In this document: positions 15,492-44,747 of the stretch, piece by piece
Numbering within the stretch: position 1 is the stretch's first letter
Layout: every line of letters begins with the position of its first letter
IMG/VR virus record: IMGVR_UViG_3300025127_007531
Span: 1 to 45,255 of that record
Origin: a virus
Direction: 5' to 3' (one strand)
DNA length: 45,255 nucleotides
Made by a program: the position numbers and the translations under genes
The notes under the pieces: generated by a model
Seen by the model: the letters and a program-made list of their open reading frames with translations, nothing else
Told to the model about the DNA's origin: nothing
Database searches by the model: none

Positions 15492-15502
15492 AATCATAGT
15501 GA

Positions 15503-27061: not shown

Positions 27062-27070
27062 ATAAATAGA
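27062..27070 (-). promoter_or_regulatory. Candidate late promoter element (tape measure)
   Basis: The minus strand reads TCTATTTAT 34 bases before the tape-measure ATG, the most divergent of seven copies of the CTATTTAT motif. Confidence 0.45.
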
Positions 27071-27100
27071 AAATTTAAAAATTTATGACTATAACTTGTG

Positions 27101-27238
27101 CTATTCGTCTTCTTGTGGGTTATTGTATTCTCTAGTTTTCTTTACAAACCATTTTCTTAGCCCTACTGGAAGATTGTAGGCTTCTGTAAAAGAAAAATTA
27201 TTCTCTTTCATCAGGTAGAATATCTCCTCGTATGCCAT
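27101..27238 (-). CDS. Small protein after gp26-like gene (gp51-like or tail-assembly-chaperone extension)
   Basis: A 45-residue product from ATG 27238 (MAYEEIFYLMKENNF...VGLRKWFVKKTREYNN). Its frame stays open far upstream, to 27391 inside the gp26-like gene, overlapping it by 140 bases in the +1 frame. Only a weak ribosome site (AAAGAA) precedes the ATG, 13 bases after the gp26-like stop. In T4, gene 51 follows gene 26. In many other phages the two frames at this spot, between tube and tape measure, encode a tail-assembly chaperone and its frameshifted extension. Either separate translation or a +1/-2 frameshift is possible. Confidence 0.6.
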   Translation of the reverse strand: MAYEEIFYLMKENNFSFTEAYNLPVGLRKWFVKKTREYNNPQEDE

Positions 27239-27251
27239 TTTTTGGTATTCT

Positions 27252-28211
27252 TTATAAGTCAGTTCGAAACAACGCCCACGAAAGGGGCGCCTCTCTTTCA
27301 GAGGTGGTACCACACTCACTACAGGTGACCTCTTGCATGGTTGACATATTTGGATAACAGTCGTTATAAAAGTCTTTAAGATAGGATGCATCTGCAGCGG
27401 GCAGAACTTGCAGCAATTGCCTTATGAGATTGGGGTCTGAAACCCCGTTTGCAGTCATTATAATATTCTCCAAGTACGAAAGGGTGTAATTAAAATTAAG
27501 ATTGTGTTTGTTTTTTTGTCTTCTCTCTTTTTCAATATTATCCATAATATCTCTTGTCAAATTAATTAATTCTAACCGTATATCAGAAACAGGCAAGGTG
27601 CAAACAAAACTGTTTGTTTGGGGGTTAAAATATATTACATCTTTGTTTTCTTCTGAATCTTCTGCCTCTATTTCTGTTGTTAATACTATTTCTTTTTTTG
27701 GCTTATTAGTTGTTTTTTTCGATAAATCAAACTTATGGACTGTTTGATCATTACAATTTTGACAGAAAACTTTTGTAGTATAATGAGGTCCGTAACCTGT
27801 AACGCGAGCAGTCAACAAAACCGCCATTTTGTCTTCTTCTAAAAAATCTTCAGGATTTATTTCTTTATCTACAAGTAAGCTTCTCAACAATTTGTTAAAT
27901 ACACTATTGGCACCAGACTCTCCAGCGCCGGAGGATAAGACATCCTCGTCTTTTGCTGTCATATGCCTTATTTCTATTTTACTCTTCTGAAACAGAGAAC
28001 TACCCTCTGCATAGTATCTTGCCTCTGAAGGGAGACTTACGTACTCCGTAGGAACCACAAAAGATAGTCCAAATGGATTTTCTTTTGTGACGTTTTGTTG
28101 GCGCGGCGGTGGTTTTGGATCTGCAGTCGGTGGCTGATTTTTTGAACCACCTTCACCACCATTATAGTTAGGGTTCTCGTTTCCTCTAAGTTTATTAGAG
28201 TTTCTAGACAT
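27252..28211 (-). CDS. T4 gp26-like baseplate hub / tail assembly protein
   Basis: A 319-residue protein. After a Pro/Asn-rich N-terminal 40 residues it has VPTEYVSLPSEARYYAEGSSLF, then IEIRHMTAKDEDVLSS and LLRSLLVD, a pattern I associate with the T4 gp26-type baseplate family. Two CxxC pairs (CQNC about residue 168 and CSEC near 297) form a likely zinc ribbon. T4 gp26 helps assemble the hub. Its location between tube and tape measure also suggests a chaperone for the tape measure (inference). The end overlaps an open reading frame in +1. The ATG at 28211 has AAAGAGAG upstream. Confidence 0.8.
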   Translation of the reverse strand: MSRNSNKLRGNENPNYNGGEGGSKNQPPTADPKPPPRQQNVTKENPFGLSFVVPTEYVSLPSEARYYAEGSSLFQKSKIEIRHMTAKDEDVLSSGAGESGANSVFNKLLRSLLVDKEINPEDFLEEDKMAVLLTARVTGYGPHYTTKVFCQNCNDQTVHKFDLSKKTTNKPKKEIVLTTEIEAEDSEENKDVIYFNPQTNSFVCTLPVSDIRLELINLTRDIMDNIEKERRQKNKHNLNFNYTLSYLENIIMTANGVSDPNLIRQLLQVLPAADASYLKDFYNDCYPNMSTMQEVTCSECGTTSEREAPLSWALFRTDL

Positions 28212-28277
28212 AAAAATCTCTCTTTCTTTTTTTTAGACTTTTCTATTTTAACATTATTTTTATAAAAAATAAAGCTT

Positions 28278-28862
28278 TTAAGTTGTTGTTTCTGGTGTAA
28301 ACAAGTTCCACCCTGATATATCACGATCTCCGTCAGGGTTCAAAACTGCCCAGTCATATTTTACGCCAATTTGAATATTCAGTGCTTCGTCAGAAGAGTA
28401 GTCAAGCCCGTCAAAATTAACTGAAGTAATTTGAGGATTATTCAAAATCCAAGTTTCTATAACCTGGTTTGAGGCTTTACCTTCTGCATTAATTTGCTGA
28501 ATTTTAAATTCCCCTAAGGATCCGACCATTTTTTGCTTTGAAATGGTTTTATACCCCGCATCTGCTTGTCCTATAACGTCAGGAGGTAGAATATAGCCAG
28601 AATTCTTAAGAATATTATAAAGAGCCTGGGTTGCATCAGGATTGACTGGGTCTACCAACGTAAGGTTAACATCTTGCCAGGTAACTCTTCCAGGAAAATG
28701 AAAAGTGTGCTGCAGAAACTGATGGTTAGTGCTTTGAACCTGAAATGAAGGCTTCGTAACTGACTTTATTATAAACTGTGGTGCTCCTGCAAAATAGAGC
28801 ATCCACCTAAACTTTCTTTTTGGCTCAAGTTTTGCATCGTTCCAAAATGTGTTTCCACTCAT
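28278..28862 (-). CDS. Tail tube protein, gp19-like
   Basis: A 194-residue protein, slightly longer than T4 gp19 (163). The diagnostic segments are FRWMLYFAGAPQFIIKSVTKPSF, HTFHFPGRVTWQDVNLTLVDPV and a C-terminal QIGVKYDWAVL strand, the usual tube-fold order of beta-hairpins around one helix. It stacks in hexameric rings to form the inner tail tube. It follows the sheath gene by 69 bases with a strong AAGGAGA ribosome site 10 bases upstream. No CTATTTAT motif is seen in that gap, so it is probably read from the sheath transcript. Confidence 0.92.
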   Translation of the reverse strand: MSGNTFWNDAKLEPKRKFRWMLYFAGAPQFIIKSVTKPSFQVQSTNHQFLQHTFHFPGRVTWQDVNLTLVDPVNPDATQALYNILKNSGYILPPDVIGQADAGYKTISKQKMVGSLGEFKIQQINAEGKASNQVIETWILNNPQITSVNFDGLDYSSDEALNIQIGVKYDWAVLNPDGDRDISGWNLFTPETTT

Positions 28863-28931
28863 GATTACATATCTCCTTATAATACATAGGTATTAAATTA
28901 AAAGTTTTACCTTGATGATTTCATTTTTTCG

Positions 28932-31895
28932 TTAATCATCAAACTCAGCACCAGTGTTTGTTATGATAAAGTCCACCGCGATGAATTCTATTGCCCTTGC
29001 AGGCTTTAAAAATATCTTTGCGTACATTATGTTCCTATCTACAAGATCTGGTGTTGTAGTTGTGTCATCTAACACAACCTTAAAATCAGACAACCCGAAC
29101 CTTACCTTAACGCTTTCAAGGAAAGGCACTACACGACTAGTAAATCTACTCCAAGTTGCTTGAACATTTTGTTCAAAAAGCAACGTATTGCATATTCTTG
29201 ACACTTCTTTCTTAATAAAGATCATCAATCTTCTCACATTAATACGGTCAAGTGCTGATTTTGTTGATTGTAAAGTTTTCTGGCCAAAAATTACAATACC
29301 TTCCGAAACAAAAGAAGCTATTGGGTTAATATTGGCCTCATATAGCGTATCTCTATCTTTAGACATCAAGTGCTCTGATACTTGCAAGACCGGGACTCCG
29401 GCCGTGCCCTGATTTAAGCCACCGCGGTTGAAGCCGGCGGGCGCAAACCAAACTTCTGCCGTTCTTTCTGTGTATGCCATAGCTCCTAGGGCAACAACAG
29501 AAGGTGGAACCCAGACGTCACGAGAATTCAGATTATCTCTTATCTTTACCCATGGGTAATATGTAGTTCCGTAAGAGGAGTTTATCTGCCTGCGAACAAG
29601 GTTGTTGGCAGAGCGCTCGGGATCTGTACCGTCTGTTCTATCTCTAAAGTCAGTGCAAGAATTTTCAGATGGCGGCACATAAACATCCGGCAGGTCAATA
29701 ATCGCTAAAGTGTCTGCGCGTGATTCACACGTTTTTACAAGCTTGCCGGTTAAAGACTCGTTTGTTATACCAGGCATGGCGGCAAGATTGTGTTCTACTA
29801 CCTCTGGATCACTGATAAGGTCTATGGCTCTATTGATAGAGGCGTAAGCGTACGATGTTCGGGTGGACGCATTTTTTGTTACATTGTTGTTGAATGCGTT
29901 AGCTTCAATTATATTAAGCCCATCTGATCCCCCAACAAGAGGCATATGAAACCCTTTCACAACATCAAGCAATGGCCGCAACTGATGGGACCCTGAGGCG
30001 ACTCTAGCAGCCAAGGCGGCGAAGGATGCGCCTGCCGACTCTGCGGATGATACGCTTGAGGTTGGGGTTGACTTGTTTTTTGAACCTGGTTCATAATACG
30101 CCTCTGATATATCCGTGGGTCTTGTTATGGATAGCACAGAATTAAGCTCTGAATCTTCGACTAGCTTCAGGACAACATCGTCTAGACTAAATGCAAAAGA
30201 GTGCTGAGAATACGTGCCGTCGGCCGTGCCGTCATCTTGATCTCTTGTGAGATTCGTCAAGGTCCCAAGTCTCCTAACCAAATCAACATAGCCGGGGTTC
30301 ATTTCTGATGTCTGCTCTCTTTGTCCATACGCTGATCCTGTCTTGTATTGTTGTAAAAATGGTGTGGCTCCCATGAAAAAATCATCTTCTGCAGAGGCAG
30401 AATTAACCAAAGGAAAGTCAGGCCACTGTATCTTCATGTTTTGTCCGCCAAAAGAGCCGGTATTTATAGTAATTGCTCCTGTGACCCATGAGTCACCAAT
30501 TGTATTGTTACCGGTGCTTCCACTCATAGCAACCTTAGTTGTTTTAGGTCTAACTGGACCTAAGAAACCAAAGGGCACTAGACCTGGAGAACTTGGGCCT
30601 GAATCTCTAACCGACGAGTCTAGTTCTACTCTAATATACTCTGATATATTTAAGTTAGACTCTCTGACCCTATTTCTCTTTTCAGTTGAAGACCACTCCA
30701 GATATTGATCACCGATTTGTCTCGAAATGAAATTATCAGATGAAGGATCTAGGCTACAATTATCAAATCTTTCTAGCTCTTCTAGCCTTCCTGTGCCGTA
30801 TATTATTCTCTTAACTACGACACTAAAGGTTCCATATGGATCGAAGGCGCCTTCGCGGGGGATCCTGATGTCTTCGATAGATACCATTATATTCCTGCTA
30901 GCTTCTGTGCCTTCATGTAGAGCTATAAATCTGAATAACTTCTCAGACTTTAAAGCGTCGAAATCTTTAACATTGCTATCAGTATCTTGCGCTATTACCC
31001 ACCCGGTTCGGGCCGAGATTAGCTCATGTTTGGCTCCTCGAAAATCATCCATTCCATCCTTGAGTGGCAATATCATCGCAGCTTTATATGCTGTAGCTGA
31101 TGTGACTGATGCATCAAGCTTTCTTTGGACTGATTCAAATGACTCCCCAAGCCAATATTTTGATGCCATAGAACTGGCAGGAGGTGACATAATTCTATTA
31201 TTAGTCATCACAGGATTAGTATTAAAATCTTGTCTAATTTCTGACAATAAAGTGTGTACTTGTCTAGTCAGGCCTGCGCTGGAAGACAATTGTATTGTTA
31301 GCCTATCTGAATTATTGAAATATGATGCTGAGCCATGGCCCATGACTATGCGGTCGTCCGACCGAGACGGTGGTCCGTTTGGCTTGATTGGGGTACCTAC
31401 GAGATTGATTGAGAACTTTTCGGCAGACTCTGCAGCATAGAATACTGCTGCAAGCGAAGCAGTTGGGGCGATACTGCTGCCACTGTCGTACGACATAACA
31501 AACAGACCATACGCGTTGTCTACAATCCACCCAGGCTCAGCGTCCGAATCAGCTATTGCATTATCGCCTGTTATTCCCGCAAGACGAACAACAGTAACAG
31601 GTGTATCTTCACCTGCTAAAAAGTGTGCTCGTGCGGCATAAGGAACGTACGACTCTGCTAAAAGGTGTGTGCCGTCTCTCCAAGGATCCAAACCTTCATT
31701 ACCAGGCATGGGAACACCAAAAACTCTTTGGAATTCTTCTAAATCTTTTACTTTATAAGGTTTCATCGCTGGGCCTTGCCTGGTTCTACCGATGAGGACA
31801 GGGCCGATACCTGGGGCTTGGCCCGGTAATTGGGATAAGTCAATTTCCTTCAGGAAAACTCCAGGGGAAACAAATCTAAATTTTCTTGTTGCCAT
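28932..31895 (-). CDS. Contractile tail sheath protein, gp18-like
   Basis: A 987-residue protein, far longer than T4 gp18 (659). The N-terminus has the sheath signature SPGVFLKEIDLS and GIGPVLIGRTRQGPA, then a V(K)DLEEFQRVFG linker. The C-terminal third carries the conserved assembly fold: GVPVLQVSEHLMSKDRDTLYEANINPI, IFGQKTL, INVRRLMIFIKKEV, FEQNVQATWSRF and the final AIEFIAVDFIITNTGAEF strand. The extra length lies in the middle (about 130-760), where sheath proteins place surface domains. It drives DNA injection by contraction. A late-motif copy sits 47 bases upstream and AAGGAGA 8 bases before the ATG. Confidence 0.95.
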   Translation of the reverse strand: MATRKFRFVSPGVFLKEIDLSQLPGQAPGIGPVLIGRTRQGPAMKPYKVKDLEEFQRVFGVPMPGNEGLDPWRDGTHLLAESYVPYAARAHFLAGEDTPVTVVRLAGITGDNAIADSDAEPGWIVDNAYGLFVMSYDSGSSIAPTASLAAVFYAAESAEKFSINLVGTPIKPNGPPSRSDDRIVMGHGSASYFNNSDRLTIQLSSSAGLTRQVHTLLSEIRQDFNTNPVMTNNRIMSPPASSMASKYWLGESFESVQRKLDASVTSATAYKAAMILPLKDGMDDFRGAKHELISARTGWVIAQDTDSNVKDFDALKSEKLFRFIALHEGTEASRNIMVSIEDIRIPREGAFDPYGTFSVVVKRIIYGTGRLEELERFDNCSLDPSSDNFISRQIGDQYLEWSSTEKRNRVRESNLNISEYIRVELDSSVRDSGPSSPGLVPFGFLGPVRPKTTKVAMSGSTGNNTIGDSWVTGAITINTGSFGGQNMKIQWPDFPLVNSASAEDDFFMGATPFLQQYKTGSAYGQREQTSEMNPGYVDLVRRLGTLTNLTRDQDDGTADGTYSQHSFAFSLDDVVLKLVEDSELNSVLSITRPTDISEAYYEPGSKNKSTPTSSVSSAESAGASFAALAARVASGSHQLRPLLDVVKGFHMPLVGGSDGLNIIEANAFNNNVTKNASTRTSYAYASINRAIDLISDPEVVEHNLAAMPGITNESLTGKLVKTCESRADTLAIIDLPDVYVPPSENSCTDFRDRTDGTDPERSANNLVRRQINSSYGTTYYPWVKIRDNLNSRDVWVPPSVVALGAMAYTERTAEVWFAPAGFNRGGLNQGTAGVPVLQVSEHLMSKDRDTLYEANINPIASFVSEGIVIFGQKTLQSTKSALDRINVRRLMIFIKKEVSRICNTLLFEQNVQATWSRFTSRVVPFLESVKVRFGLSDFKVVLDDTTTTPDLVDRNIMYAKIFLKPARAIEFIAVDFIITNTGAEFDD

Positions 31896-31941
31896 TCTTA
31901 ATATCTCCTTGTGAGGGACAAAATAATTATTATTTTACTTA

Positions 31942-31950
31942 ATAAATAGT
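31942..31950 (-). promoter_or_regulatory. Candidate late promoter element (sheath)
   Basis: The minus strand reads ACTATTTAT 47 bases before the sheath ATG, just after the terminator of the tail-fibre gene, which is where a new transcript would be expected to start. Confidence 0.6.
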
Positions 31951-31974
31951 TTTACCTTTTCGCAAAGGAAATAA

Positions 31975-32005
31975 GAAAAAGAAAAGCCCGCCAAAAAGGC
32001 GGGCT
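31975..32005 (-). terminator. Factor-independent terminator after the tail-fibre gene
   Basis: On the minus strand AGCCCGCC pairs with GGCGGGCT across TTTTT and is followed by TTTCTTTTTCTT. It lies 26 bases after the tail-fibre stop and before the sheath late motif. Confidence 0.85.
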
Positions 32006-32030
32006 GAGGTAGGATTTAATGGTAGGTTAA

Positions 32031-35000
32031 TTATTTTTTGACGTAGTGTATTACAATCGCGTCGTCTTCTTCTGGCTCGATTCCAAAAACAACCATCTGG
32101 TTTGTTCCGGAGCCGTCTTCTAGTTTATAGTCCCAAGTGCTAGCACCTAGACCAGAAGCCGCATACTTAGTCTGAAGCATACCATTCAAGTAAACCTGAA
32201 GAGAGTCCACAACAGGCTCTTCTGCCAAAGAAGCACTCACGTAGGCGCCATGAGTGTTCTGTAGCGCAAGGGAACCTGAGAAGGTTGAGACAACTGGGTC
32301 GACGGTGATAAGACCGTCATTTCCAATTTGAAGACCATCGCCCTTCAGTGACTGCAGAAAAGCGTTCAAACTCTGAACCTTTAATTGATCATCGGTTGCA
32401 TCTTTGAAGACAATGAAATCATCGATACCGTCGCCGGTGACGTCGATATCCGCGGTGGCGCTGGCGAAGTCACTAGCATCTACAGCATCAAGGTGAGCAA
32501 CACCATTAATGTAAAGATCGTTGAATTGCCGTCCAGATGCACCGAGGTTAACAGCAGCATAATTGTCCAAAGGAAAAATATCACCTTGTACTGTTAATGA
32601 TGATGCAAAGGTTGCAGCGCCGGAGCCAGATACTGTTCCAGCAGACAAAGCGGTTATCGTGATTCCGTCAATTGTGCCGCCTTCAACCTTATCGCCAGAG
32701 ATCGCGTCATCATCAAGAGTCAAAGTCTGACCAGTCATGTCAACGTCGGAAGTGGCAACTGTTACACCATCGATGTTACCGCTGTCGATGTTGATATCTG
32801 TGATTATCTGACTATTAGCATCAAGTGCCTGACCAAGCTGATCAATGTGAGCTTCAACAACGTGTGCTTGAGCGTAACGCTTGGCTGCAGCACCGAGGTC
32901 AGAGGCATTATCACTTGAAGGAAGGAAGTCTCCAGCCGAGGTCACGTTTCCGCCAAACTGAGCCGTGGACGAACCAGAGACCGTTGCTCCTTGCAGTGCG
33001 GTGATGGTGATTGCGTCAATCGTACCACCCTCAACCTTGTCACCAGAGATCTGGTCGGCTGCAAGGGTTAGGGTACCAGCGGAAACATCAAGTTCTTTGG
33101 TTGCCCCTACGGTGATATCAGAGGTTGCAATTGTTACACCATCGATAGTACCGCTGTCGATGTTGGCGTTTGAGATTATCACGCTATTAGCATCAAGTGC
33201 TTGACCCAACTGATCAATGTGAGCTTCGGCAATGTGTGCTTCAGAATAGCGCTTCGTGCCGCTACCTAGGGCCATTTCGTCGTCAGCGTCTGGTATAATT
33301 CCAGCGTCGTGCAATGATACGAAAACAGAACTATCAAGTGATAGGTCAAATCCGCCTGCGCCACTGTTGAGACTGTCACTATAGGCAATCGAAGCGACAT
33401 CGTCACTGGCGGCAGAGCCACCAAACTGTATGGCTGCACCGTCGGCGCCTGCATCGTTTGCTCCAGCAGCAGCAATGATTACCTTGTCTGCAATCTCTAA
33501 AGTCTCCTCAGTTTGCACAACAGAGTTGAGAGTAACAACGTCCAAGTTGGTGATTCTTGCGTGAGATGCAGTTAATTGTGGCAATGCTGAGATTGTGGAT
33601 CCAGCAAAGCTATAAGTTCCAGCGTCGAACGTTCCTGCTCCAACTTTGTCTGCACCGACCTGACCTGCGTCAAGCGTAAGGGTCTGGCCTGAAACATCAA
33701 CGTCAGAAGTAGCAATTGTTACACCATCGATAGTACCGCCGTCAATGTCAGCAGTGAGAGCGACCAAAGCATCAATGTTGGCAGTGCCGTCAAGGTGAAG
33801 GTTCCTGAACTGCTTGCTAGATGAACCCAAGTCAGACACATCATCGCTTGAAGGAAGAATATTGCCATTTACTGTTAGTGGGCCTTCGAACTGGGCTGCA
33901 CCAGAGCCAGAAACGTCACCCAAAGTTAGGTCTGTTATTGTGATTTCAGCAATTGTACCACCCTCAACCTTGTCACCAGAGATCTGGTCATTGTCAAGTG
34001 TGAGTGTTTGACCAGAGACATCAACGTCAGTTCCTGAAATGTCACCGCTGTCGATGTTGACACTGGTCATAGCCTGGCTAGCAAAGTTAATTGCACCAGC
34101 GGCCTCAAAAGCTCCGAGCTTGGTCGCTGTAAGAGTATCGCTTTGTGGATTCCATTTAACCCCATCAACGTCTGTTGCTAATTTTCCAGAGCCGGTTGAG
34201 TGAGTAAAAACAAGTTGATAGTCTTCACTGTTTCCATCTACTGCCTCAACGTCTACGCTTGAGAAGAAATTCTGCAATGCGTCAACGGTTACAGCCTTTG
34301 CTGCCTGTCCACTGCGCTGAATTAACATCTCATCCCCGGTTAACACATCGCCCGAAAGATTTGCAGAACCTGAAAGGTCCACAGCTTTCGCCAATGCTTT
34401 GTTTACTGATTTAAACTTTTCTAACTGTCTATTATTTAGTTTTGTAATTGCCATGTTAGATCCTCCTACGGCTTGGTATTGACTAAAACTGGTTGTACTG
34501 ATCGTAACTGTTCCTCCGGAACAACTCCAAAATTCTTGAGGCAATTCATACCATGGGCCTGAAGCTGCTGCTCTCTTGTAAATTTTGAGATTTGCAGGAC
34601 ATGATCCTGCTGCTGTTCCCGTTAAATCAAACTGAATGGTTACTGCCTGATCAAAGTTCTGACCATGAGGTGTCGCAGTGATTACTGGTGAATACTGAGA
34701 CATATCAGGATTTCCGGCTGCAGCCATTATTCCCTGATGTGCAGCATCTGCATCAGCAGTCTTGTTCAAACCTATTGTTTGGTCTGAAGATAACGCCGAT
34801 GCGGGCACCGTAAGGCTAGCCCCTGAAATAGATACACTTCCTCCTGATGAACCTATTGATTCTGATGCTTCGTCAGTAGAAGAAGATTCATCCTGAAACT
34901 TTGGTGTTGCTGTTGAGCCATCTCCAACTGAAAAATTTGCTTTATTAAGCCGTGGATCAAAAAGTCCGTTGCTTAAACCAGAAATAGAAAGCCAATCATC

Positions 35001-36764
35001 GGCTGTAGGTGTCCCTGAGTATGTGAAAGTTATTTGCAACTGATCTTCGTAAATGGTATATCCAGATGGTTTTGTACTAGAACCATGATTCATAGTCCCA
35101 TCTGGCATGTGAAAAGTTACCCCACTATACTCACTAAACGTATGTTCGTGAGAACTTCCAGCGCCGCCGGCGTCGGCGACATCTAGATAAACTGGGTACC
35201 ACCAACCTGTTGCGCCTGAGTAATTTCCAGTATTATCCGTTCCGTATACTGCTAGGGCTCCGGAATCATCTGAAGTTTGATATGAAAAACTAGCGCTAGC
35301 AACAGATAAGCTACCAGTAAGTGGAGAAGATCCGTAATTATTACTACCGTCAATTCGATATGCTGTAATCTGACTGAAGTCAGACATCACCACATCTCTT
35401 AGGTCAGAGAAGCTCGATGGCGAATAGCTATCTGAGGCCCACATTCTCTCTTCGTAGTCTATCGTAACCGTTCCAGTTCCCGAAGAGTTAACAAGTGTAA
35501 CTGTCGGTGTACTAGTGGTTGTATCTATTTCATTATCAGACACATCAAATGCTGACCATGATGAGAAACTTCCGCCACTTGAATCATAACCTCCATTGTA
35601 AGTTATGTCTAAGCGCCGCATTTCATCGCTCAAAGCAAATCCATACGATCCATCAAATTGAACCTGTGCATAACTTCCATACCCAAATTCACTGGAAGGG
35701 TTCCAGTATTGACCGGAAATTGAAGCGGATGATGCTGCCGCGGCGAGGTACTTCGATGAGCCATAGCCTCCGTAGTTGTCATCATTGTGGAATATACTAC
35801 TAAGAACAACACTACCAGTTGCACCGGCAGCGACGCCATCGATATATTTCCACGAACTTCCATCTTCACCCTCACCTTCATCAACTTGTATATAAAAGTG
35901 AGCGGTACTGGAATCATCATTGTAGACATTGAAAGTTCTATTAAAATAAGATCTTCCAGATCCTCCAGTGGCTGGCCAGGTTAGATCCCCACTTGAAAAG
36001 TTACTGTAACTAGGCGATGACGCCTGGTTACCATACTGATCATAAACACTCCCGTAAGACAAAGTAAAACTTACTGTATCACCATCTTCAACATTTCCGT
36101 CGTAAGACACACCTATAGTAACGGTATCATCAGTTGAAGTAGTCGTGCTATAAGTTACACTATCAATACCTATATTCTTTACACTGCTATTACTAGAAGT
36201 CCAAGTTAATGTTGGTATGGTAGAAGTAGTCCATTCGTTACCGGATGAGTCTCCAACTTTTTCACCGAACACCATCTTTATCTCGCTATTTGTAGAACCA
36301 GGAAAAGTGACTGTAAAATCATCAGTACTTGGTCCCGAAACGTCTAAAAGATTATCTCCGGAGTCGTAATGAGTCCAGGTTCCCTGCCAGTTTGATGCGG
36401 AAGCGTGTGTCTCAGGGTGCGTAATATTTAAAAAATATGTTTGTTGTACAGAGCTAGAAACCGGTGCTGGAGTGTTTCCTCCACTATTCGGACCGTAAAT
36501 GCCTTGTTCATAACCATCGAAATCAGAAAAGATCGTAGCGCTATTTAAAGTCACTGGTGACGCGTTGTGAAACAAACTATATGATGAGTAGGAATTCAGA
36601 AGATCTGAACTAAACTCTGACGAGACTGCAGATCCACTAAGATCCGCAGAGCCTACAAATATATAATCCGAGCCCGAGTCACCCTGGTCACTATCGACTT
36701 GTTGATAATAATATTTTTTAGCCGATGTAAGGTTTAAAACTCTTAATTTTAGGTTTATTGCCAT
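32031..36764 (-). CDS. Giant tail-fibre/adhesin-like protein, probable fusion or two-product gene
   Basis: An open frame of 1577 residues with no cysteine-rich or membrane region. Residues 1-640 are Ser/Thr/Tyr/Gly-rich beta structure; 641-770 resemble a ZU5 domain. From Met771 a second unit begins (MAITKLNNRQLEKF) with a helical start, then repeats of the type HIDQLGQALDANS-I...NIDSG-IDGVTIATSD and SDLGSSSKQFRNLHLDGTA, common in phage tail fibres and appendages. The last 100 residues form a distinct C-terminal domain ending VIHYVKK. At codon 771 a perfect AGGAGGA lies 6 bases before ATG, so an 807-residue protein could be made separately. The start at 36764 has AAGGAGG upstream. It precedes the sheath gene. 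Confidence 0.85.
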   Translation of the reverse strand: MAINLKLRVLNLTSAKKYYYQQVDSDQGDSGSDYIFVGSADLSGSAVSSEFSSDLLNSYSSYSLFHNASPVTLNSATIFSDFDGYEQGIYGPNSGGNTPAPVSSSVQQTYFLNITHPETHASASNWQGTWTHYDSGDNLLDVSGPSTDDFTVTFPGSTNSEIKMVFGEKVGDSSGNEWTTSTIPTLTWTSSNSSVKNIGIDSVTYSTTTSTDDTVTIGVSYDGNVEDGDTVSFTLSYGSVYDQYGNQASSPSYSNFSSGDLTWPATGGSGRSYFNRTFNVYNDDSSTAHFYIQVDEGEGEDGSSWKYIDGVAAGATGSVVLSSIFHNDDNYGGYGSSKYLAAAASSASISGQYWNPSSEFGYGSYAQVQFDGSYGFALSDEMRRLDITYNGGYDSSGGSFSSWSAFDVSDNEIDTTTSTPTVTLVNSSGTGTVTIDYEERMWASDSYSPSSFSDLRDVVMSDFSQITAYRIDGSNNYGSSPLTGSLSVASASFSYQTSDDSGALAVYGTDNTGNYSGATGWWYPVYLDVADAGGAGSSHEHTFSEYSGVTFHMPDGTMNHGSSTKPSGYTIYEDQLQITFTYSGTPTADDWLSISGLSNGLFDPRLNKANFSVGDGSTATPKFQDESSSTDEASESIGSSGGSVSISGASLTVPASALSSDQTIGLNKTADADAAHQGIMAAAGNPDMSQYSPVITATPHGQNFDQAVTIQFDLTGTAAGSCPANLKIYKRAAASGPWYELPQEFWSCSGGTVTISTTSFSQYQAVGGSNMAITKLNNRQLEKFKSVNKALAKAVDLSGSANLSGDVLTGDEMLIQRSGQAAKAVTVDALQNFFSSVDVEAVDGNSEDYQLVFTHSTGSGKLATDVDGVKWNPQSDTLTATKLGAFEAAGAINFASQAMTSVNIDSGDISGTDVDVSGQTLTLDNDQISGDKVEGGTIAEITITDLTLGDVSGSGAAQFEGPLTVNGNILPSSDDVSDLGSSSKQFRNLHLDGTANIDALVALTADIDGGTIDGVTIATSDVDVSGQTLTLDAGQVGADKVGAGTFDAGTYSFAGSTISALPQLTASHARITNLDVVTLNSVVQTEETLEIADKVIIAAAGANDAGADGAAIQFGGSAASDDVASIAYSDSLNSGAGGFDLSLDSSVFVSLHDAGIIPDADDEMALGSGTKRYSEAHIAEAHIDQLGQALDANSVIISNANIDSGTIDGVTIATSDITVGATKELDVSAGTLTLAADQISGDKVEGGTIDAITITALQGATVSGSSTAQFGGNVTSAGDFLPSSDNASDLGAAAKRYAQAHVVEAHIDQLGQALDANSQIITDINIDSGNIDGVTVATSDVDMTGQTLTLDDDAISGDKVEGGTIDGITITALSAGTVSGSGAATFASSLTVQGDIFPLDNYAAVNLGASGRQFNDLYINGVAHLDAVDASDFASATADIDVTGDGIDDFIVFKDATDDQLKVQSLNAFLQSLKGDGLQIGNDGLITVDPVVSTFSGSLALQNTHGAYVSASLAEEPVVDSLQVYLNGMLQTKYAASGLGASTWDYKLEDGSGTNQMVVFGIEPEEDDAIVIHYVKK
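32761..33254 (-). repeat. Intragenic direct repeats in the tail-fibre gene
   Basis: Two copies of a roughly 122-base unit, 32761-32882 and 33133-33254, are highly similar (372-base period), with a partial third copy near 33718. They encode the IDSG-IDGVTIATSD and HIDQLGQALDANS modules. Such repeats in fibre genes usually allow length change by recombination. Confidence 0.75.
34452..34467 (-). promoter_or_regulatory. Perfect internal ribosome binding site and ATG within the tail-fibre frame
   Basis: On the minus strand AGGAGGA (34467-34461), six bases, then ATG (34454-34452), in frame with the large protein. This matches the real start sites of other genes here, and the protein N-terminus that follows (MAITKLNN) resembles that of the full-length product (MAINLKLR). 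It predicts a second, shorter product. Confidence 0.7.
34455..34844 (-). other. ZU5-like domain coding segment in the tail-fibre gene
   Basis: About 130 residues just before the internal start: GGSVSISGASLTVPASAL, then YSPVITATPHG-NFDQAVTIQFDL and a final TISTTSFSQYQAVGG strand. GGSVS..G..LTVP..AL and SPV...PHG..F..PVTI are the recognisable ZU5 pattern, seen in some bacterial surface proteins, where it often sits near a chain end. Confidence 0.55.
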
Positions 36765-36947
36765 AAATTATTTCCTCCTTTTTTTTTTATAATTATTGAC
36801 TTTTAAATTGAGGAATAAATTTCTTTTATTCAACAAAAAATACATTAATTCTATTAAAAAAAATAAGAAAATTTTTATGAGGTGAGATTAAAAAATTGCT
36901 TTAAAGGATTTAAAACAAACGAACACTATAAATAGTTTTTTGTACAC
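36765..36947 (-). promoter_or_regulatory. Long AT-rich leader of the tail-fibre gene with late motif
   Basis: The largest non-coding gap, 183 bases. The minus strand holds ACTATTTATA at 36936-36927 and then a leader of about 150 bases, over 80% A+T by eye, ending in AAGGAGG before the ATG. Apart from homopolymer-like A and T runs, I see no stable hairpin, tRNA or coding frame. Confidence 0.5.
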
Positions 36948-37160
36948 TTAAGAGAATAATATTTTCTTCAAATTTCTGACGTTGTTATCAAACTTACAAA
37001 AATCAGAGTCTAAAAATTCCAATGACAAGGAAGGGCATAGCGATTCTGGATCTTCAAAGCAAAAGTGAAATTTTCCAGACTCTAATCTTTTGCACTCTTT
37101 AAGTTTTAGTCCCTTTAATTGCAAATAGGCTGCTATACCTATATCACTTGTAGTATACAT
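36948..37160 (-). CDS. DUF5659-like small protein
   Basis: This 70-residue protein begins MYTTSDIGIAAYLQLKGLKLKE, continues through HFCFEDPESLCPSLSLEFL and ends NVRNLKKILFS. This matches the plan I recall for DUF5659 (YTTxDxxLAAYLxxKGxxL..., FxFED, ...LRNLKxLL), a small domain frequent in phages and bacteria with no assigned function. It has its own late-motif copy 41 bases upstream, so it is expressed with virion genes. It may be a virion or assembly factor, but nothing in the sequence shows which. Confidence 0.7.
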   Translation of the reverse strand: MYTTSDIGIAAYLQLKGLKLKECKRLESGKFHFCFEDPESLCPSLSLEFLDSDFCKFDNNVRNLKKILFS

Positions 37161-37200
37161 AGTAAAATTTATCCTGCTTGTTGTTAAATGTTTATCAAAG

Positions 37201-37209
37201 ATAAATAGT
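37201..37209 (-). promoter_or_regulatory. Candidate late promoter element (DUF5659-like gene)
   Basis: The minus strand reads ACTATTTAT 41 bases before the ATG at 37160, in the short gap after the preceding gene's stop. Confidence 0.55.
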
Positions 37210-37212
37210 ATT

Positions 37213-37581: not shown

Positions 37582-37651
37582 TTTGCGCTCCTTTCAAAAA
37601 GTAAATTATATGAGATTGTTTTATTATATACTAAAGAGAGGCATTTTTAAA

Positions 37652-38954: not shown

Positions 38955-38962
38955 TCTTTATT

Positions 38963-40222
38963 CTACCCCACAAAAATATAATTCGGCACCTTATCCAGCA
39001 CCTTCTCAGTGTTGTCAAGCAATTGAGCATCCTGTTCTGCCATCTTTGCATAAGTAAGCTCAGAGAGTGTTTGCTTGAGTTCATCTCTTAACTTGTTTTG
39101 TTCTTCTTTGCCTTCTGATATTAGCGCAGTACCGTTTAGAGTCACTGACTCTCCGGGGATCGGGACGGAATTAAACTTAGACCTTACTTGGCCAAGAGTC
39201 TCTTTACACAATGCTAAAGCAAAACGTCTGATCCACTGTTTTCCTATTGAGTTTATGTTCTCAAATGGAAGGTTCCCCATAGGCAAAGTGTTCAAATTGT
39301 TTACTCCGTCAACCGTCTTATCTTTATAATCCCACACATCCGTAGGAATTGAAAATTCAACCCACATTATTCTTGGGCCACCTGTGTACGGAATAGGAAA
39401 CAGCCTAAGCTTATTGTTTTTTAACTCATAAGAAAAATGAGACATTCTGGTATATATTGCGTCCTCAAAAGCCAATGCCTGTGCTTTGTTTTGCCATGTT
39501 GGTATTAGTTGAAAGGTTGAATCGTCCGAAAATTGACCATAGTTGTGAAGATTACCTACAACATTTAGGCCTCCATAATACCCATAAAACCTCCACATTG
39601 CTTGCGGTGTTTTATAAAAAACTTTTTTAATCAAAATTCTTTTTCCGGCTATGGAGCCGGAAAAGTTGGCAGAATTTTCTAAAATTGACTGTAGATCATA
39701 TTCTTGAACTTGTGGAACAATATCAAAAGATGCTGAATATTGTATTGATGAGTTTAGTCCTATTTCTGAGCCTACTCCTTCTCCGATTCGACGGGTCATA
39801 CTATAGTCAAACTTAGGATACTTTAAGGCGACATGTGTTCCACCCAAAGATGAAGATAAGGCTCCAGCTTGCAGGTTCCCTTTTGAATCAAAAGATCCCG
39901 TAGTGTTACCTAGGGCATCCGAAAGGACATTTGTTGCCTGATGTATATTTATTAAATATGAGTATTCTAAAACTGCCTCCTCATATGCTGCATAAATGTT
40001 CCCCTCTGTAAGTTCTATATCTAAAACATCTCCTCCGAGTTTTTTATAGACGTAAGAGACTTGGTCTTTTGCTCCATTTAAAAATTCAGATGAATACATC
40101 GTAGAGGATTCTTCAGAATATATTTTATATGGAACGGCCGCATTAACATTTGCGGTGTCTCCGGTTGAAGGCAAAACAATTGCTGATGTTTTGCTCACTG
40201 GTGTTAAAGTAGGTGCCGACAT
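38963..40222 (-). CDS. Neck / head completion protein, gp13-like
   Basis: A 419-residue protein, longer than T4 gp13 (309). The gp13-type features are GGDVLDIELTEGNIYAAYEEAVLEYSYLIN near residue 65, a middle section with VFYKTPQAMWRFYGYYGGL, and a C-terminal helical stretch FALALCKETLGQVRSKFNSVPIPGESVTLNG followed by EGKEEQNKLRDELKQTL. The Ser/Thr/Asn-rich N-terminal 40 residues are likely flexible. A late-motif copy lies 33 bases before the ATG. The gene contains a perfect inverted repeat at 39641-39664. Confidence 0.82.
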   Translation of the reverse strand: MSAPTLTPVSKTSAIVLPSTGDTANVNAAVPYKIYSEESSTMYSSEFLNGAKDQVSYVYKKLGGDVLDIELTEGNIYAAYEEAVLEYSYLINIHQATNVLSDALGNTTGSFDSKGNLQAGALSSSLGGTHVALKYPKFDYSMTRRIGEGVGSEIGLNSSIQYSASFDIVPQVQEYDLQSILENSANFSGSIAGKRILIKKVFYKTPQAMWRFYGYYGGLNVVGNLHNYGQFSDDSTFQLIPTWQNKAQALAFEDAIYTRMSHFSYELKNNKLRLFPIPYTGGPRIMWVEFSIPTDVWDYKDKTVDGVNNLNTLPMGNLPFENINSIGKQWIRRFALALCKETLGQVRSKFNSVPIPGESVTLNGTALISEGKEEQNKLRDELKQTLSELTYAKMAEQDAQLLDNTEKVLDKVPNYIFVG

Positions 40223-40254
40223 TTTTGTCCCTCTCTATTTTGCCATTTATCAAT

Positions 40255-40263
40255 ATAAATAGT
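40255..40263 (-). promoter_or_regulatory. Candidate late promoter element (gp13-like neck gene)
   Basis: The minus strand reads ACTATTTAT followed by ATTG, 33 bases before the ATG at 40222. The same extended sequence occurs before the gene at 41528. Confidence 0.6.
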
Positions 40264-40282
40264 TAGTGAGGCAGACAAAAAC

Positions 40283-40600
40283 CTAGGCGTTCTGCTTTGT
40301 TTCTACTGATGTGGTCTTCTTTCGACGAGATGTGGTGGTTGATGTTGTCTTTTTATTTGTCGATTTTGAATTTGAAGCGCGGGGTTTTCTTGTGGTTTTT
40401 CTTTTTGAGGTTTTTGTTTTTAATTCTACCTTAGGCTCTTCTTTTGTATTTTCTTCAATATTATTATTTTCATCAAGATCTTCAGATAAGGTTAAGAAGC
40501 CCCTAACCTTATCCAGAAGTCTTGCATACTTTCTCTCCCATTTCTTGGGAATCTTGCCTCGTATTTTATATTGAAAAAAAAGTCTTTTTTTTCTTCCCAT
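40283..40600 (-). CDS. Small Lys/Thr-rich basic protein, related N-terminally to the next gene
   Basis: A 105-residue protein of unknown function. It starts MGRKKRLFFQYKIRGKIPKKWERKYARLLDKV, an N-terminus resembling the neighbouring 303-residue protein (MGKKKRYILN...KYFKVLDKMDG). An acidic linker follows, then a long Lys/Arg/Thr/Ser-rich tail (about 65-105) of very low complexity. It could bind DNA inside the head or act as a virion-associated basic protein (inference). It follows the 303-residue gene by 16 bases with AAAGGAAAT as ribosome site. Confidence 0.75.
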   Translation of the reverse strand: MGRKKRLFFQYKIRGKIPKKWERKYARLLDKVRGFLTLSEDLDENNNIEENTKEEPKVELKTKTSKRKTTRKPRASNSKSTNKKTTSTTTSRRKKTTSVETKQNA

Positions 40601-40616
40601 TTTATTTCCTTTCTTT

Positions 40617-41528
40617 TTAAGTCACAGTGAGAACATGAGATACTGCCTGGTCTGCAGACTGATCTCCGTTCACATCTAATGGAACATAAGTTAGAGTAAC
40701 GCTTTGCGCGTCCAGTGCTGCGACGCTGCCGCTCGCGAGCAAAACAACTAGGCCCTTGTTCGCATGTCCGTTGGACGCACCAGTATGTGCCAATGAAATA
40801 CTTCCAGTAAGAGATCCACTAGCTGAAATAGCATAACCATGGGCAGATCCAGATGGAGAGTAAACTGCAGAAGACCCAACTGATGATCCGGAACCATGTT
40901 GAACACCGGTGCCGTTCATTTGTGCTAAATCGAGACTCATGTCAAGAGTACCATCAAAATTTCCTCCAACGGCTCCTGATAGCGCGCTACCAAGTTGCGT
41001 AGAGCTTAAGCCAATAGGTGCGGAAGAGACGTTAACAGAAGCGAAAGCGTGAGCTAGTAAGTTCTTATCCTCAACTGACCAAAAGCCTGGGGCATTTTGG
41101 TTACTAATCGTAGATTTTACCGTAAGGCGACCAGCCGGAAATATTGCTGGCTTCCCTCCCTTTACAAGGGCTGGGCCTGCAGAAGCAAAAGTATATCCCT
41201 TCGAGCCAGAGGCGCTTATAACTATTAGTTCTCCCCCATACTCTGGTGAGGCATTATTAGAGATTGCGTTCACACCCCCAGAAACATGGAAAAAGTAGCC
41301 CATTTTGTGTGTTCCCTCGTGGCTTCCGGCTGATGCAGAACCGAAAAGTTGAGCAGTTAACTTCACCGTCCTGTCTCCGAAATCAGTGAGAGTTAGCTTT
41401 CTTATGCTAGTATCTACTAGCTTACTGCTTATTTGATTGTCTACAGTTCCGTCCATCTTGTCCAGAACTTTAAAATATTTTTTACCGAACTTTTTTGTAT
41501 TAAGTATATATCTCTTTTTTTTGCCCAT
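40617..41528 (-). CDS. Virion-associated protein with basic N-terminus, candidate decoration protein
   Basis: A 303-residue protein. The N-terminal 25 residues are Lys-rich. The remainder is rich in Ser, Gly and Ala and has strand-like alternation (SSKLVDTSIRKLTLTDFG, FFHVSGGVNAISN, GYTFASAGPALVKGG), ending in a V(T)LTYVPLDVNGDQSADQAV strand that resembles an Ig-like edge. Directly downstream of the major capsid gene and with its own late-motif copy 33 bases before the ATG, it is a plausible capsid decoration or structural protein, but no homologue is recognised. Ribosome site AAGGAGG. Confidence 0.7.
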   Translation of the reverse strand: MGKKKRYILNTKKFGKKYFKVLDKMDGTVDNQISSKLVDTSIRKLTLTDFGDRTVKLTAQLFGSASAGSHEGTHKMGYFFHVSGGVNAISNNASPEYGGELIVISASGSKGYTFASAGPALVKGGKPAIFPAGRLTVKSTISNQNAPGFWSVEDKNLLAHAFASVNVSSAPIGLSSTQLGSALSGAVGGNFDGTLDMSLDLAQMNGTGVQHGSGSSVGSSAVYSPSGSAHGYAISASGSLTGSISLAHTGASNGHANKGLVVLLASGSVAALDAQSVTLTYVPLDVNGDQSADQAVSHVLTVT

Positions 41529-41560
41529 TTAATGGATCCTCCTTCGCAAGGTTATACAAT

Positions 41561-41569
41561 ATAAATAGT
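41561..41569 (-). promoter_or_regulatory. Candidate late promoter element (gene downstream of capsid)
   Basis: The minus strand reads ACTATTTAT then ATTG, 33 bases before the ATG at 41528, directly after the capsid-gene terminator. Confidence 0.6.
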
Positions 41570-41589
41570 GCAATAATTCTCCAATAGAA

Positions 41590-41622
41590 AAAGAAAAGCC
41601 CTGCTAACTTAATAGCAGGGCT
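41590..41622 (-). terminator. Factor-independent terminator after the capsid gene
   Basis: On the minus strand AGCCCTGCTA pairs with TAGCAGGGCT across a six-base loop (TTAAGT) and is followed by TTTCTTTTTC. It lies about 31 bases after the major capsid stop. Confidence 0.88.
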
Positions 41623-41652
41623 TCGCTTTAGTCTCTTATTGGAATTTGGCTA

Positions 41653-43458
41653 TTAGCTGCCAGATTCTCCTAGGAGTCCGCGGACGACTACGAGGCCGTA
41701 CATATCAGGTCGCACCATCTTCTTGGCGTAACGGGTCATAACACCCTTACGAGGCACGAAGTCCTCTGTGCCGAAGATAGTTGGCGTCACCTGGAGTGGT
41801 ACGTATGGTGCGTACACAAATCCGCTTTCAAGGAAAGAACTTCCCTTTCGGCCGACGAGAACCACGTTTCTTAAGAAATATGGATCAACATAAACGTCAA
41901 ACTTCTTGCTTAAACTACCAGCTTTGACAGCACCGATGGTGCCGCGATCCTGGTCAGCAGTAACGCTAGCGCGGAAGCCACTGGTAAATTCAAGAACGTT
42001 AGCCACTTCTGGAGAACAAACAACAAAGTTTGCTCCGCCGCGGAGCGTCTTTCTGTGGATCTGAGCGGAAACGTCGTTGATTGTCTCAACAAGCGTCTCA
42101 TACCATTCACTCACAGTACCGGTGAAGTCAGGAGCAACTGTTTCCTGTCCAATCTGGTTTCCGTTGGCATCAACGAAAAGACCAGGTGCACGGCTCCAGT
42201 AGCGAGTTCCAGCAGTTGCGCCGTTAACAAGCTCCCCGAGAAGTTCACGGTCGATTTCCAAAGCAATCTGCTCTGAAAGAATACCCGTAAGCTCAACCTC
42301 AGCATCCAAGTTGTGATAAGCGTTGAGGTCCTGACCTAACTCAGGTGTCCACTTAGCCTTCAACTTCTTGGTTTGTGCGGTAACAGCAATCGAGTCGACC
42401 TTGATGTCGATTTCAGGAATGTCCTGCATGGTTCCACCTTCGCCGCTAGCCTTTGCATTACCTGCACCATTTGGTCCGCCGAGCGATCGTGATGGCTCTT
42501 CAAGTCCCCATGGGGCCACACCAGCAACTGCACCAGCCGCAAGGCCAGTAGTTGTGAAAGCGTCAGCTAATGGAATCTGGATAGCAATTGGCGCTGCCCC
42601 GTCGAGGTCGGCGACTGTAGCAGCGTTCGGTGCCCCATCGTCTGATGCATCATGAAGTACAACAATCAAACGATCATCAATAATTCTGGTTAATCTTCGA
42701 ATGACCTGTCCAGTACCAACCGGGTTGATGACGACTGCTGAAAGCTTTCCTCGATCCAAGTTAGGCGCTCCGGCAGTAACCGTTGTAGTCGATTCATAAA
42801 CACCTAGCTGGCCGCCGGTGGCAAGAAGATCAGCATCGAAACGAATAGCTTTCTTCATTGCATCAGTAAACGTATCGGCAGACATGTCCTGGTCAGTAAC
42901 TGCTGCACCACCAAGTGCGGCAAGTCGAGCACCGGAAATGGCCTGGAACTGAAAAGATGCTGATCCAGTTGGAGCAGAGAGGCCATGGCCCAAGTTATAG
43001 TGGCCGCCGGCACCTGCATCATCATCAGCCTGATCGCCAAGATCAACACCTCCGACAAGCTCAGCACCAACCACGTTTCCACCATACACGGAATCAGTGG
43101 CCTTGGCACCGAGTCGGTCCTGTGCGTGGGTAAAATCGAGGAAGAAAATGAGACCGGATGGCAAGCTCATTGGCTGAACCGACACGAGATCATTTGCTAT
43201 AAGTCCACCGAATACACGACGAACGATTGGGAAAGCAACTGCTGCGAAACCTTCGACATCGCCAGCAGCCATAGACGAGGCTTCTCGAAGAAGTTCCTTC
43301 GCCTGGTTTTCGAGAAGTACCGCCATTCCCTGCTTTGCTTGGCCGTCATTAAGACCTTCAAGCAAGCCAGTAGCTTCCCATTTGTTAAGTAGGGCTTGTC
43401 CTTCAGCTTGCATATCGCGAGACTGAACGCCCTCTGTTAGTTTTTGTAAAACAGACAT
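41653..43458 (-). CDS. Major capsid protein, gp23-like
   Basis: A 601-residue HK97-fold capsid protein of the T4 type. Seen: an N-terminal helical delta region (1-59), FPIVRRVFGGLIANDLVSVQPM near 77-98, LPSGLIFFLDF, a middle section with MQDIPEIDIKVDSIAVTAQTKKLKAKWTPELGQDL, LSEQIALEIDRELL, and a C-terminal FVYAPYVPLQVTPT. A site L57-R-E|A60 fits the T4 prohead protease consensus (hydrophobic-x-Glu|Ala/Gly/Ser). The ATG has AAAGGAGGTGAT, the strongest ribosome site in the window, as expected for the most abundant virion protein. Upstream is the scaffold gene. The GroES-like gene may assist its folding. Confidence 0.96.
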   Translation of the reverse strand: MSVLQKLTEGVQSRDMQAEGQALLNKWEATGLLEGLNDGQAKQGMAVLLENQAKELLREASSMAAGDVEGFAAVAFPIVRRVFGGLIANDLVSVQPMSLPSGLIFFLDFTHAQDRLGAKATDSVYGGNVVGAELVGGVDLGDQADDDAGAGGHYNLGHGLSAPTGSASFQFQAISGARLAALGGAAVTDQDMSADTFTDAMKKAIRFDADLLATGGQLGVYESTTTVTAGAPNLDRGKLSAVVINPVGTGQVIRRLTRIIDDRLIVVLHDASDDGAPNAATVADLDGAAPIAIQIPLADAFTTTGLAAGAVAGVAPWGLEEPSRSLGGPNGAGNAKASGEGGTMQDIPEIDIKVDSIAVTAQTKKLKAKWTPELGQDLNAYHNLDAEVELTGILSEQIALEIDRELLGELVNGATAGTRYWSRAPGLFVDANGNQIGQETVAPDFTGTVSEWYETLVETINDVSAQIHRKTLRGGANFVVCSPEVANVLEFTSGFRASVTADQDRGTIGAVKAGSLSKKFDVYVDPYFLRNVVLVGRKGSSFLESGFVYAPYVPLQVTPTIFGTEDFVPRKGVMTRYAKKMVRPDMYGLVVVRGLLGESGS

Positions 43459-43485
43459 TATAAAATCACCTCCTTTTCTATAGAT

Positions 43486-44682
43486 TTATTTTGTCTTTAT
43501 TCCTGCCAATTTTTGCATTCTATTATACAAAGGATTGGCATCCTTATTTGTTTGCTCATGACGAGCCGCGACAAGTAGTGAAGATTTACGTGATACTACT
43601 TCGTTTAAGGTTGAGTCTTTCTTCACGTCTGAAGTAGTACTAACCGCATCACTCATTGTATCAAATATTATCTTTGCTTCTTGTACTGTTTCGGCTTTCG
43701 AAATGGCTTCGACAATTTTTCTTTTTTGTCGCTCATTCAAGGAGGCATTTTCTAGAGCCTGGTTAATATACAGCAACTTTGCGTTCGAAACATTCATGGT
43801 CTCCAACTTTTCTTGCAATGTGTTAAATGCTGTTTCATATTTTTTGTTTTGTTTTTGCAGCTTACTAGCCGCAGAAACTATAGTCTTATTTTCTTGCTTA
43901 AGATTCTTAACAGCTTTGCGAAGTTTTTCGTTCTTTTCTTTAACTTCGCTATCTTGCTCTCTAGCTAGGAGCATAGCTTCATATTCTCTCATAATCATTT
44001 CTGGTGTTCCTGCCCATCCGGATTTTTGGGGATCGAAGTCGACTCGAACGGCCTCTATAATATCTTCTAAATCGACCTCTTCTTCGCTGATACCCAAATC
44101 TCTCAAAGCTTCCTTTACCATATCACTTGTTATATCAATGTCAACTGGCCCTGATGGGGTTTCCGCATTTACTTCCGCTTCTGGGTCTTCTTCTGAGTCT
44201 GAAAAGTCAATATCATCCAGAATATCTATCCCTATTTCATCTTCGGAATATTCATCATCTCCTCCAAAAACACCATTTTCGTCATCTGGAGTGTCTGCTT
44301 CTAATGAATCAAGTTTAATATTTATTATTTCGTCATCGCCCGAACTGAATGCGTCTGGTAAGTCTGCCAACAAAGAGTCAACATCTATTGGAGTTTCCGA
44401 ATCTTCTTCGGCATTTTGGCCTTCCGGGGCTTGAGAGTCTGCCCCTAACGGGTCGAGGTCAGAAAACGAAGGATCGGCAGCCATAGGGTCTGCTCCTCCG
44501 AGGGGATCAGTATCTCCAAATCCCATGTCCATTCCGGCTCCGAGGTCCTGTTCTAACAAATGATCAACGGCTTCTCTGACTTCTTCAGAGTATTTTTCTA
44601 TGACCAACTGTTCGGCATTTCTTAGTGCAGCTTCTTTGAGTGCTTTGGCATCGATTACAGCCTGTTCAAGTAGTTTTGACAT
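43486..44682 (-). CDS. Prohead core scaffold protein, gp22-like
   Basis: This 398-residue protein is strongly acidic in residues 40-180 (repeated Asp/Glu/Pro/Gly/Leu runs). A long coiled coil follows, about 235-330 (REQDSEVKEKNEKLRKAVKNLK and following heptads), and a basic C-terminus ending NRMQKLAGIKTK. The N-terminal amphipathic helix (EQAVIDAKALKEAALRNAEQ) and gene order, just before gp23, match T4-type internal scaffold gp22, which is cleaved by the prohead protease. No prohead protease (gp21) is seen in the window; upstream of this gene only one other gene begins before the edge. A late motif lies 57 bases before the ATG. Confidence 0.82.
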   Translation of the reverse strand: MSKLLEQAVIDAKALKEAALRNAEQLVIEKYSEEVREAVDHLLEQDLGAGMDMGFGDTDPLGGADPMAADPSFSDLDPLGADSQAPEGQNAEEDSETPIDVDSLLADLPDAFSSGDDEIINIKLDSLEADTPDDENGVFGGDDEYSEDEIGIDILDDIDFSDSEEDPEAEVNAETPSGPVDIDITSDMVKEALRDLGISEEEVDLEDIIEAVRVDFDPQKSGWAGTPEMIMREYEAMLLAREQDSEVKEKNEKLRKAVKNLKQENKTIVSAASKLQKQNKKYETAFNTLQEKLETMNVSNAKLLYINQALENASLNERQKRKIVEAISKAETVQEAKIIFDTMSDAVSTTSDVKKDSTLNEVVSRKSSLLVAARHEQTNKDANPLYNRMQKLAGIKTK

Positions 44683-44738
44683 CCTTTAAACTCCTAGCGA
44701 TTTAAATACTTATACATAACAAATAAATTTGTCTCTTA

Positions 44739-44747
44739 ATAAATAGT
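44739..44747 (-). promoter_or_regulatory. Candidate late promoter element (scaffold-capsid)
   Basis: The minus strand reads ACTATTTAT 57 bases before the scaffold ATG at 44682, in the gap after the partial gene at the window end. It would serve the scaffold and capsid genes together. Confidence 0.58.

Follow-up and report, generated by a model that had tools for sequence, protein, structure and literature searches.

The late promoter of bacteriophage T4 consists of an 8-bp -10 box, TATAAATA, which works together with gp55, gp33 and the sliding clamp gp45; the bacterial sigma70 promoter is made of TTGACA and TATAAT separated by 16 to 18 bp. The Far-T4 phages form an aquatic lineage known mostly from metagenomes. 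How they express their virion genes had been an open question, because the T4 transcription-regulation core genes were not detected in the paper on this uncultivated group (PMC4360716). A -35 element is absent from T4 late promoters, and the late promoter of the Aeromonas phage Aeh1 carries a/gC at -13/-12 in place of TA (PMC2988020). The T4 structure shows gp55 flipping three bases, at -12, -9 and -8: the first, A(-12), is stacked against Y97, the -9 pocket is lined by N13 and H95, and A(-8) is held through a bond with T99 (PMC7892883).

The stretch of DNA analysed here (45,255 nt, called the window below) comes from a phage with a contractile tail whose head and tail genes are distantly T4-like. 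Its structural genes include those for a major capsid protein of the T4 gp23 type (41653..43458, minus strand; phrog_138, E = 4e-72), a tail sheath (28932..31895, minus strand; phrog_23, E = 1e-67), a tail tube and a baseplate hub, and DnaE-type polymerase, DnaB, UvsX and SSB are among the genes of the replication block. Judged by capsid and sheath, the named records nearest to it are the uncultured phage LR756508, Flavobacterium phage immuto, Microcystis phage Mel-JY01 and Rhodothermus phage RM378, and the phage therefore belongs to the Far-T4 group. Three other genes, all on the minus strand, were noticed: 17513-18088, in the recombination block next to SSB, has a PvuII-like restriction endonuclease domain (Pfam E = 2e-8); 7293-9347, with thymidylate synthase and GroES genes as neighbours, codes for a protein of 684 aa that combines five MopE-type metal-binding repeats with a VWA-like domain; and 14933-15493, between UvsX and an exonuclease gene, codes for an HNH endonuclease, possibly a homing endonuclease.

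The motif in the window

A scan of the window with the pattern WCTATTTAT gave eight matches on the minus (coding) strand and none on the plus strand. In dinucleotide shuffles of the window the mean was 1.4 and the maximum 4, so that none of 100 shuffles equalled the observed count. An earlier note had listed seven coding-strand copies, located in gaps that precede structural genes; all seven exist at exactly the positions given, and an eighth exact copy, at 14261-14269, had been overlooked. The latter lies within ORF 13977-14936 (exonuclease) and is probably a chance occurrence, because it scores below 7 bits on the family matrix, which was trained on 293 sites, all from contigs other than the window. 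With this matrix, only the seven sites were above 9 bits (range 10.2 to 19.8); the next-best score, 8.4 bits, was inside a gene, and nothing on the opposite strand reached 9 bits. The gaps of the replication block contain no copy of the motif, as the note had also observed.

The seven sites, all on the minus strand, are presented here as predicted -10 elements of late promoters, in the order in which the genes are read; the distances from motif end to start codon agree with those reported earlier. The site at 44739..44747 (exact match to ACTATTTAT, 17.9 bits) is 56 nt before ORF 43486-44682, which stands directly before the capsid gene, in the place of T4 gene 22; the ortholog of this ORF is preceded by a site in all four near-complete relatives (see below), and the capsid gene would be read through from this predicted promoter. 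The next two are also exact ACTATTTAT matches with a spacing of 32 nt: 41561..41569 (14.8 bits) precedes ORF 40617-41528, and 40255..40263 (16.3 bits) precedes the head-completion ORF 38963-40222, the ortholog of which has a site in three of the four relatives. They are followed by 37201..37209 (ACTATTTAT, exact, 14.3 bits), 40 nt before ORF 36948-37160, and by 36928..36936 (ACTATTTAT, exact, 14.6 bits), 163 nt before ORF 32031-36764. Given its long leader, the 36928 site is the least certain of the ACTATTTAT sites; the gene behind it, which had been called a tail-fibre gene, is present (1577 aa) and gave no family match. The highest score (19.8 bits) was that of 31942..31950 (ACTATTTAT, exact), predicted to control the tail sheath gene from 46 nt upstream; the sheath gene has a site in four relatives out of four. 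The weakest of the seven (10.2 bits), 27062..27070, is an exact match to TCTATTTAT located 33 nt before ORF 24881-27028, whose ortholog has a site in one relative (G028). Two sites, 31942 and 41561, had been described as lying directly 3' of terminators, and each indeed follows a hairpin-plus-T-run.

None of the seven sites fits the TTGACA - 16 to 18 bp - TATAAT arrangement. The sigma70-like pairs of the window are all apart from them, below 20300. Two are perfect, both on the minus strand and among replication genes: TTGACA-17-TATAAT at 5604 (first base of TTGACA), before the DnaE-type polymerase gene, and TTGACA-18-TATAAT at 20295 (same convention), before a polymerase-exonuclease gene. In four near-complete relatives, CTTGACA, i.e. 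the -35 element of sigma70 promoters, was found as a second strand-biased word, and their intergenic TTGACA/TATAAT pairs are strand-biased and often in stretches other than those of the late sites. This distribution fits early promoters that would be read by the host sigma, alongside a separate late class.

Distribution and anatomy of the site in relatives

The distribution of the motif was determined in 932 kb of sequence, made up of 80 contigs in which a relative of the capsid protein is encoded. ACTATTTAT occurred 124 times in the sense and once in the antisense orientation; the intergenic strand bias in relatives was 119:0. Most matches fell between genes, and a start codon typically followed 15-60 nt downstream. 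Among 15 long relatives, most of them picked for encoding a gp55-family sigma, ACTATTTAT was almost wholly one-stranded in each (e.g. 0/11, 0/10, 0/12 and 7/0). With a threshold of 12 bits, the four near-complete relatives (185-195 kb) have 93 sense sites against 2 antisense, which stand before the genes for pre-capsid, head-completion, sheath, tube, baseplate-wedge and PhoH proteins; a site was present at 19 of 68 late genes versus none of 50 early or replication genes (p = 1.4e-5). This is the bias expected of a T4-type late promoter, towards virion and not replication genes, with the reservation that it is a genomic proxy and not a measure of timing.

Two further observations were made in these genomes. 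In each of the four near-complete relatives (G001:97753, G029:137132, G025:62009 and G028:751; 0-based, sense-oriented genomes), a late site of 16-20 bits falls within the terminal part of a called gene, 170-220 nt upstream of the gp21 protease gene; a small gene missed in the calling may be what it serves. A conserved non-coding element, AATTTTTGAGATTTT, is embedded in about 50 nt of conserved sequence after the terminator 3' of the capsid gene in L069:7602, L053:12683, L030:4925 and 16 other capsid-locus relatives. It was not found in the window and had no credible Rfam match in the four loci searched. In IMG/VR, 74 of 77 copies of AAATTTTTGAGATTTTCG have a WCTANTTA late site within 60 nt downstream.

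Alignment of 109 non-redundant sites revealed a bipartite structure, GGnnTTT - 13 bp - ACTA(T/A/C)TTA - about 5 nt - purine: a GG-n-n-T-T-T box stands at a fixed distance, 13 bp upstream of the motif, and G/A peaks 13-14 positions past the first A of the motif. The upstream box carries modest information per position; its match rate shows a sharp maximum at one offset, and it was found separately at the pre-capsid, sheath, post-capsid and head-completion gene sites. In the window the upstream boxes are mostly partial, the sole full GGnnTTT match being GGTTTTT at 40277..40283 (minus strand), the upstream box of the 40255 promoter by comparison with the family logo. Since 80 of the 293 sites are directly 3' of a terminator-like hairpin, the box could have been an artefact of terminator T-runs; this was rejected, as it persists in the 213 hairpin-free sites and in the separate gene classes. 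The importance of the spacing is seen in IMG/VR, which was scanned with the bipartite pattern so as to compare the composition of matches having the right spacing with that of matches whose spacing was off by 4 bp. Among the 123 matches listed for the right spacing, 114 were intergenic, in 95 a start codon followed after 10-80 nt, and 101 were on stretches encoding late-protein relatives; the corresponding figures among the 120 matches listed for the wrong spacing were 71, 23 and 37.

Simple rules emerge for the -10 box when single-base variants in gaps are compared between sense and antisense strands. A change is tolerated at indices 0, 4 and 8 only; C1, T2, A3, T5, T6 and A7 are required and index 4 is free, with T first, then A or C. 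The consensus is accordingly ACTANTTAN. If the purine peak is taken as +1, ACTANTTA would occupy -13 to -6, i.e. the T4 register, with an uncertainty of one position.

The site thus shares with the T4 late promoter a short A+T-rich -10 box, its register and its position before late genes, as well as a gp55-family sigma within the phage lineage. It differs in having AC at -13/-12, a free -9 and a T at -8 (ACTANTTAN instead of TATAAATA), and in having a GGnnTTT box at fixed spacing upstream, where T4 has none (PMC2988020). Aeh1, with its a/gC at -13/-12, resembles it there (AC here), but keeps AA at -9/-8 against n, T here, and no upstream box is mentioned in its description (PMC2988020). Like the sigma70 promoter, the site pairs two boxes with a start site; neither of the boxes nor the spacing is that of sigma70. 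Closer counterparts are found in the named relatives: [AC]TATTTAT precedes late genes in the immuto late region (22:0 in gaps), ATATTTAT does so in the first 50 kb of Mel-JY01 (11:0), and TATTTAA in RM378, where the strand bias is weaker. Immuto and Mel-JY01 also encode a gp55-like protein; RM378 has a sigma of another family, phrog_1740. In contrast to the sites described above, no clear GGnnTTT box was seen in the few sites inspected in these three phages.

A gp55-like sigma and the bases it may read

The earlier note had suggested looking for a gp55-like sigma elsewhere in the genome: one is present in near-complete relatives and absent from the 45-kb fragment. The window has no sigma gene, as may happen in a fragment; the PvuII-like ORF 17513-18088 was rejected as a candidate, as was ORF 18085-18930, for which there was no credible match. 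T4 gp55 falls in phrog_234, which matches a gene of the 185-kb relative G001 (E = 2e-5) and, weakly, immuto KNV73_gp118. A profile built from these two proteins matches Mel-JY01 158791-159483 (E = 5e-36) and hundreds of IMG/VR loci. All 37 gp55-like members examined match phrog_234, the T4 late-sigma family, and hhalign against eight T4-type gp55 proteins gave a probability of 95.7% (E = 1e-8) over residues 21-129, i.e. sigma region 2, so that homology to gp55 extends across this region. Two genes annotated as coding for hypothetical proteins are therefore likely to be gp55-type late sigma genes, namely immuto NC_055915.1 78174-78872 and Mel-JY01 PP395634.1 158791-159483. Other searches gave little: Pfam Sigma70_r2 matched RM378 alone among the relatives, and phrog_12791 found nothing. 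In two relatives, a helix-turn-helix resembling sigma region 4 is present in proteins of about 85 aa (L096:1363-1614 and L097:1369-1632), possible partners of the late sigma.

The predicted structure of the gp55-like protein is all helical (pLDDT 82.7), and its nearest viral structural matches are largely sigma factors, T4-type late ones included; against the PDB, sequence search of the family gave no matches and fold searches weak ones only. The gp55 late sigmas are characterised by a C-terminal sliding-clamp-binding motif; in this protein the C-terminal 70 residues, to which nothing in T4 gp55 corresponds, are instead predicted to fold into a domain of three helices (pLDDT 88). The PDB matches of this domain are weak, none being significant, with many winged-helix and homeodomain folds among them.

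With the register proposed above, the box agrees with that of T4 in T(-11), A(-10), T(-7) and A(-6), and the three bases that gp55 flips are C, n and T (-12, -9 and -8) instead of A, A and A. In the 37 gp55-like proteins, Y97 is retained; N13 is replaced by T in 36, R57 by T in 35 and T99 by S in all 37. H95 is also replaced, by F, in 37 of 37, but F is found as well in five of eight T4-type proteins. The tolerant -9 and the switched -8 coincide with the replaced contacts, and this coincidence argues for a pairing of sigma and box; it is our strongest argument that the sigma reads the box. The pocket changes are consistent within one lineage and hence are not independent events. The link between sigma and promoter runs through the relatives, and the pairing that we infer is, at the level of sequence comparison, well supported.

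Late transcription in the Far-T4 phages

The proposal of a candidate new phage late promoter, made in the earlier note, receives strong support on genomic grounds from strand purity, spacing, anatomy and late-gene bias. We consider it probable that in this Far-T4 phage the seven sites serve as -10 elements of late promoters read in the sense direction, of an altered T4 type. The note had left two options, that the consensus differs from that of T4, which holds, or that antisense late promoters exist. Under the second option, T4-type promoters with their TATAAATA on the non-coding strand would be directed away from the gene and yield antisense RNA. This option, which we reject and regard as extremely improbable, stems from the fact that TATTTATA, correctly reported in three of the window copies, is the exact reverse complement of TATAAATA. 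However, TATTTATA is not the conserved word, because the base after TTA is a T in only about half of the 293 sites. The pattern of required bases around a free index 4 is unlike the information pattern of a reversed TATAAATA, the upstream box, purine peak and start-codon distance are all sense-directed, and TATAAATA shows no sense-strand enrichment in the gaps of the four relatives. A chance recurrence of an A+T-rich word in gaps that are themselves A+T-rich has a negligible probability: it is refuted by the 124:1 and 119:0 counts in the relatives, and the shuffles never reached the observed number.

That the motif is nearly always sense and near start codons would also suit an element acting in RNA, for instance a processing or stability site in the leader. 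We hold this to be highly unlikely in view of the rigid 13-bp spacing to the upstream box, the purine peak about 5 nt past the motif, the many sites just after terminators (80/293), their lack at replication genes, and a -10-like composition in the T4 late-promoter register. Somewhat less improbable, though still unlikely, is that these late promoters are read by the host's own sigma or by a phage activator that is not gp55-like: the window fragment is without a sigma gene, RM378 has its different sigma family near a similar word, and the small region-4-like proteins exist in two relatives. Against it stand the gp55-family gene in near-complete relatives and the dissimilarity of the boxes to TTGACA/TATAAT, which the same phages carry elsewhere. 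Moreover, the core word is common to immuto and Mel-JY01, whose hosts are in different phyla, Bacteroidota and Cyanobacteria, so that a host factor is unlikely to be its common reader.

What was computed for the preferred reading, that of sense-strand late promoters of altered T4 type, comprises the motif with its strand purity and spacing, its bias towards late genes, the sigma family and the changes in residues; we infer that the sigma recognizes the motif, where transcription starts and what the C-terminal domain does. The core of the host RNA polymerase would carry the phage-encoded gp55-family sigma in place of the host sigma and would open the DNA at ACTA(T/A/C)TTA, at about -13 to -6. 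Transcription would begin at the purine about 5 nt downstream of the -10 box, giving leaders of mostly 10-55 nt for the head and tail operons. The second box, GGnnTTT, would be at -33 to -27, 13 bp upstream, where we hypothesize that it is probably read by the extra, helix-turn-helix-like C-terminal domain of the sigma. A domain search for the gp45 clamp found none in eight relatives, the T4 control being positive, although a divergent clamp could escape it. Far-T4 late transcription might rely on a two-domain gp55, in which region 2 is joined by a DNA-reading C-terminal domain, acting on -35/-10 promoters without a sliding-clamp activator of the T4 type, a tentative idea that we would sooner doubt than assert.

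To conclude, CTATTTAT very probably is the switch for virion-building genes in a large, uncultivated branch of the T4-like phages; among the top-ranked results in the open-licence literature, we found no paper presenting CTATTTAT or TATTTATA as a phage promoter. The consensus can be used to annotate late operons in metagenomes, and a candidate for the missing Far-T4 sigma can be named in hundreds of contigs. That the flipped bases changed jointly with the residues holding them amounts to a natural experiment in sigma specificity. If the two-domain gp55 proved true, the clamp-dependent system of T4, without a -35 element, would be the derived one, gp55 having lost its upstream reader.
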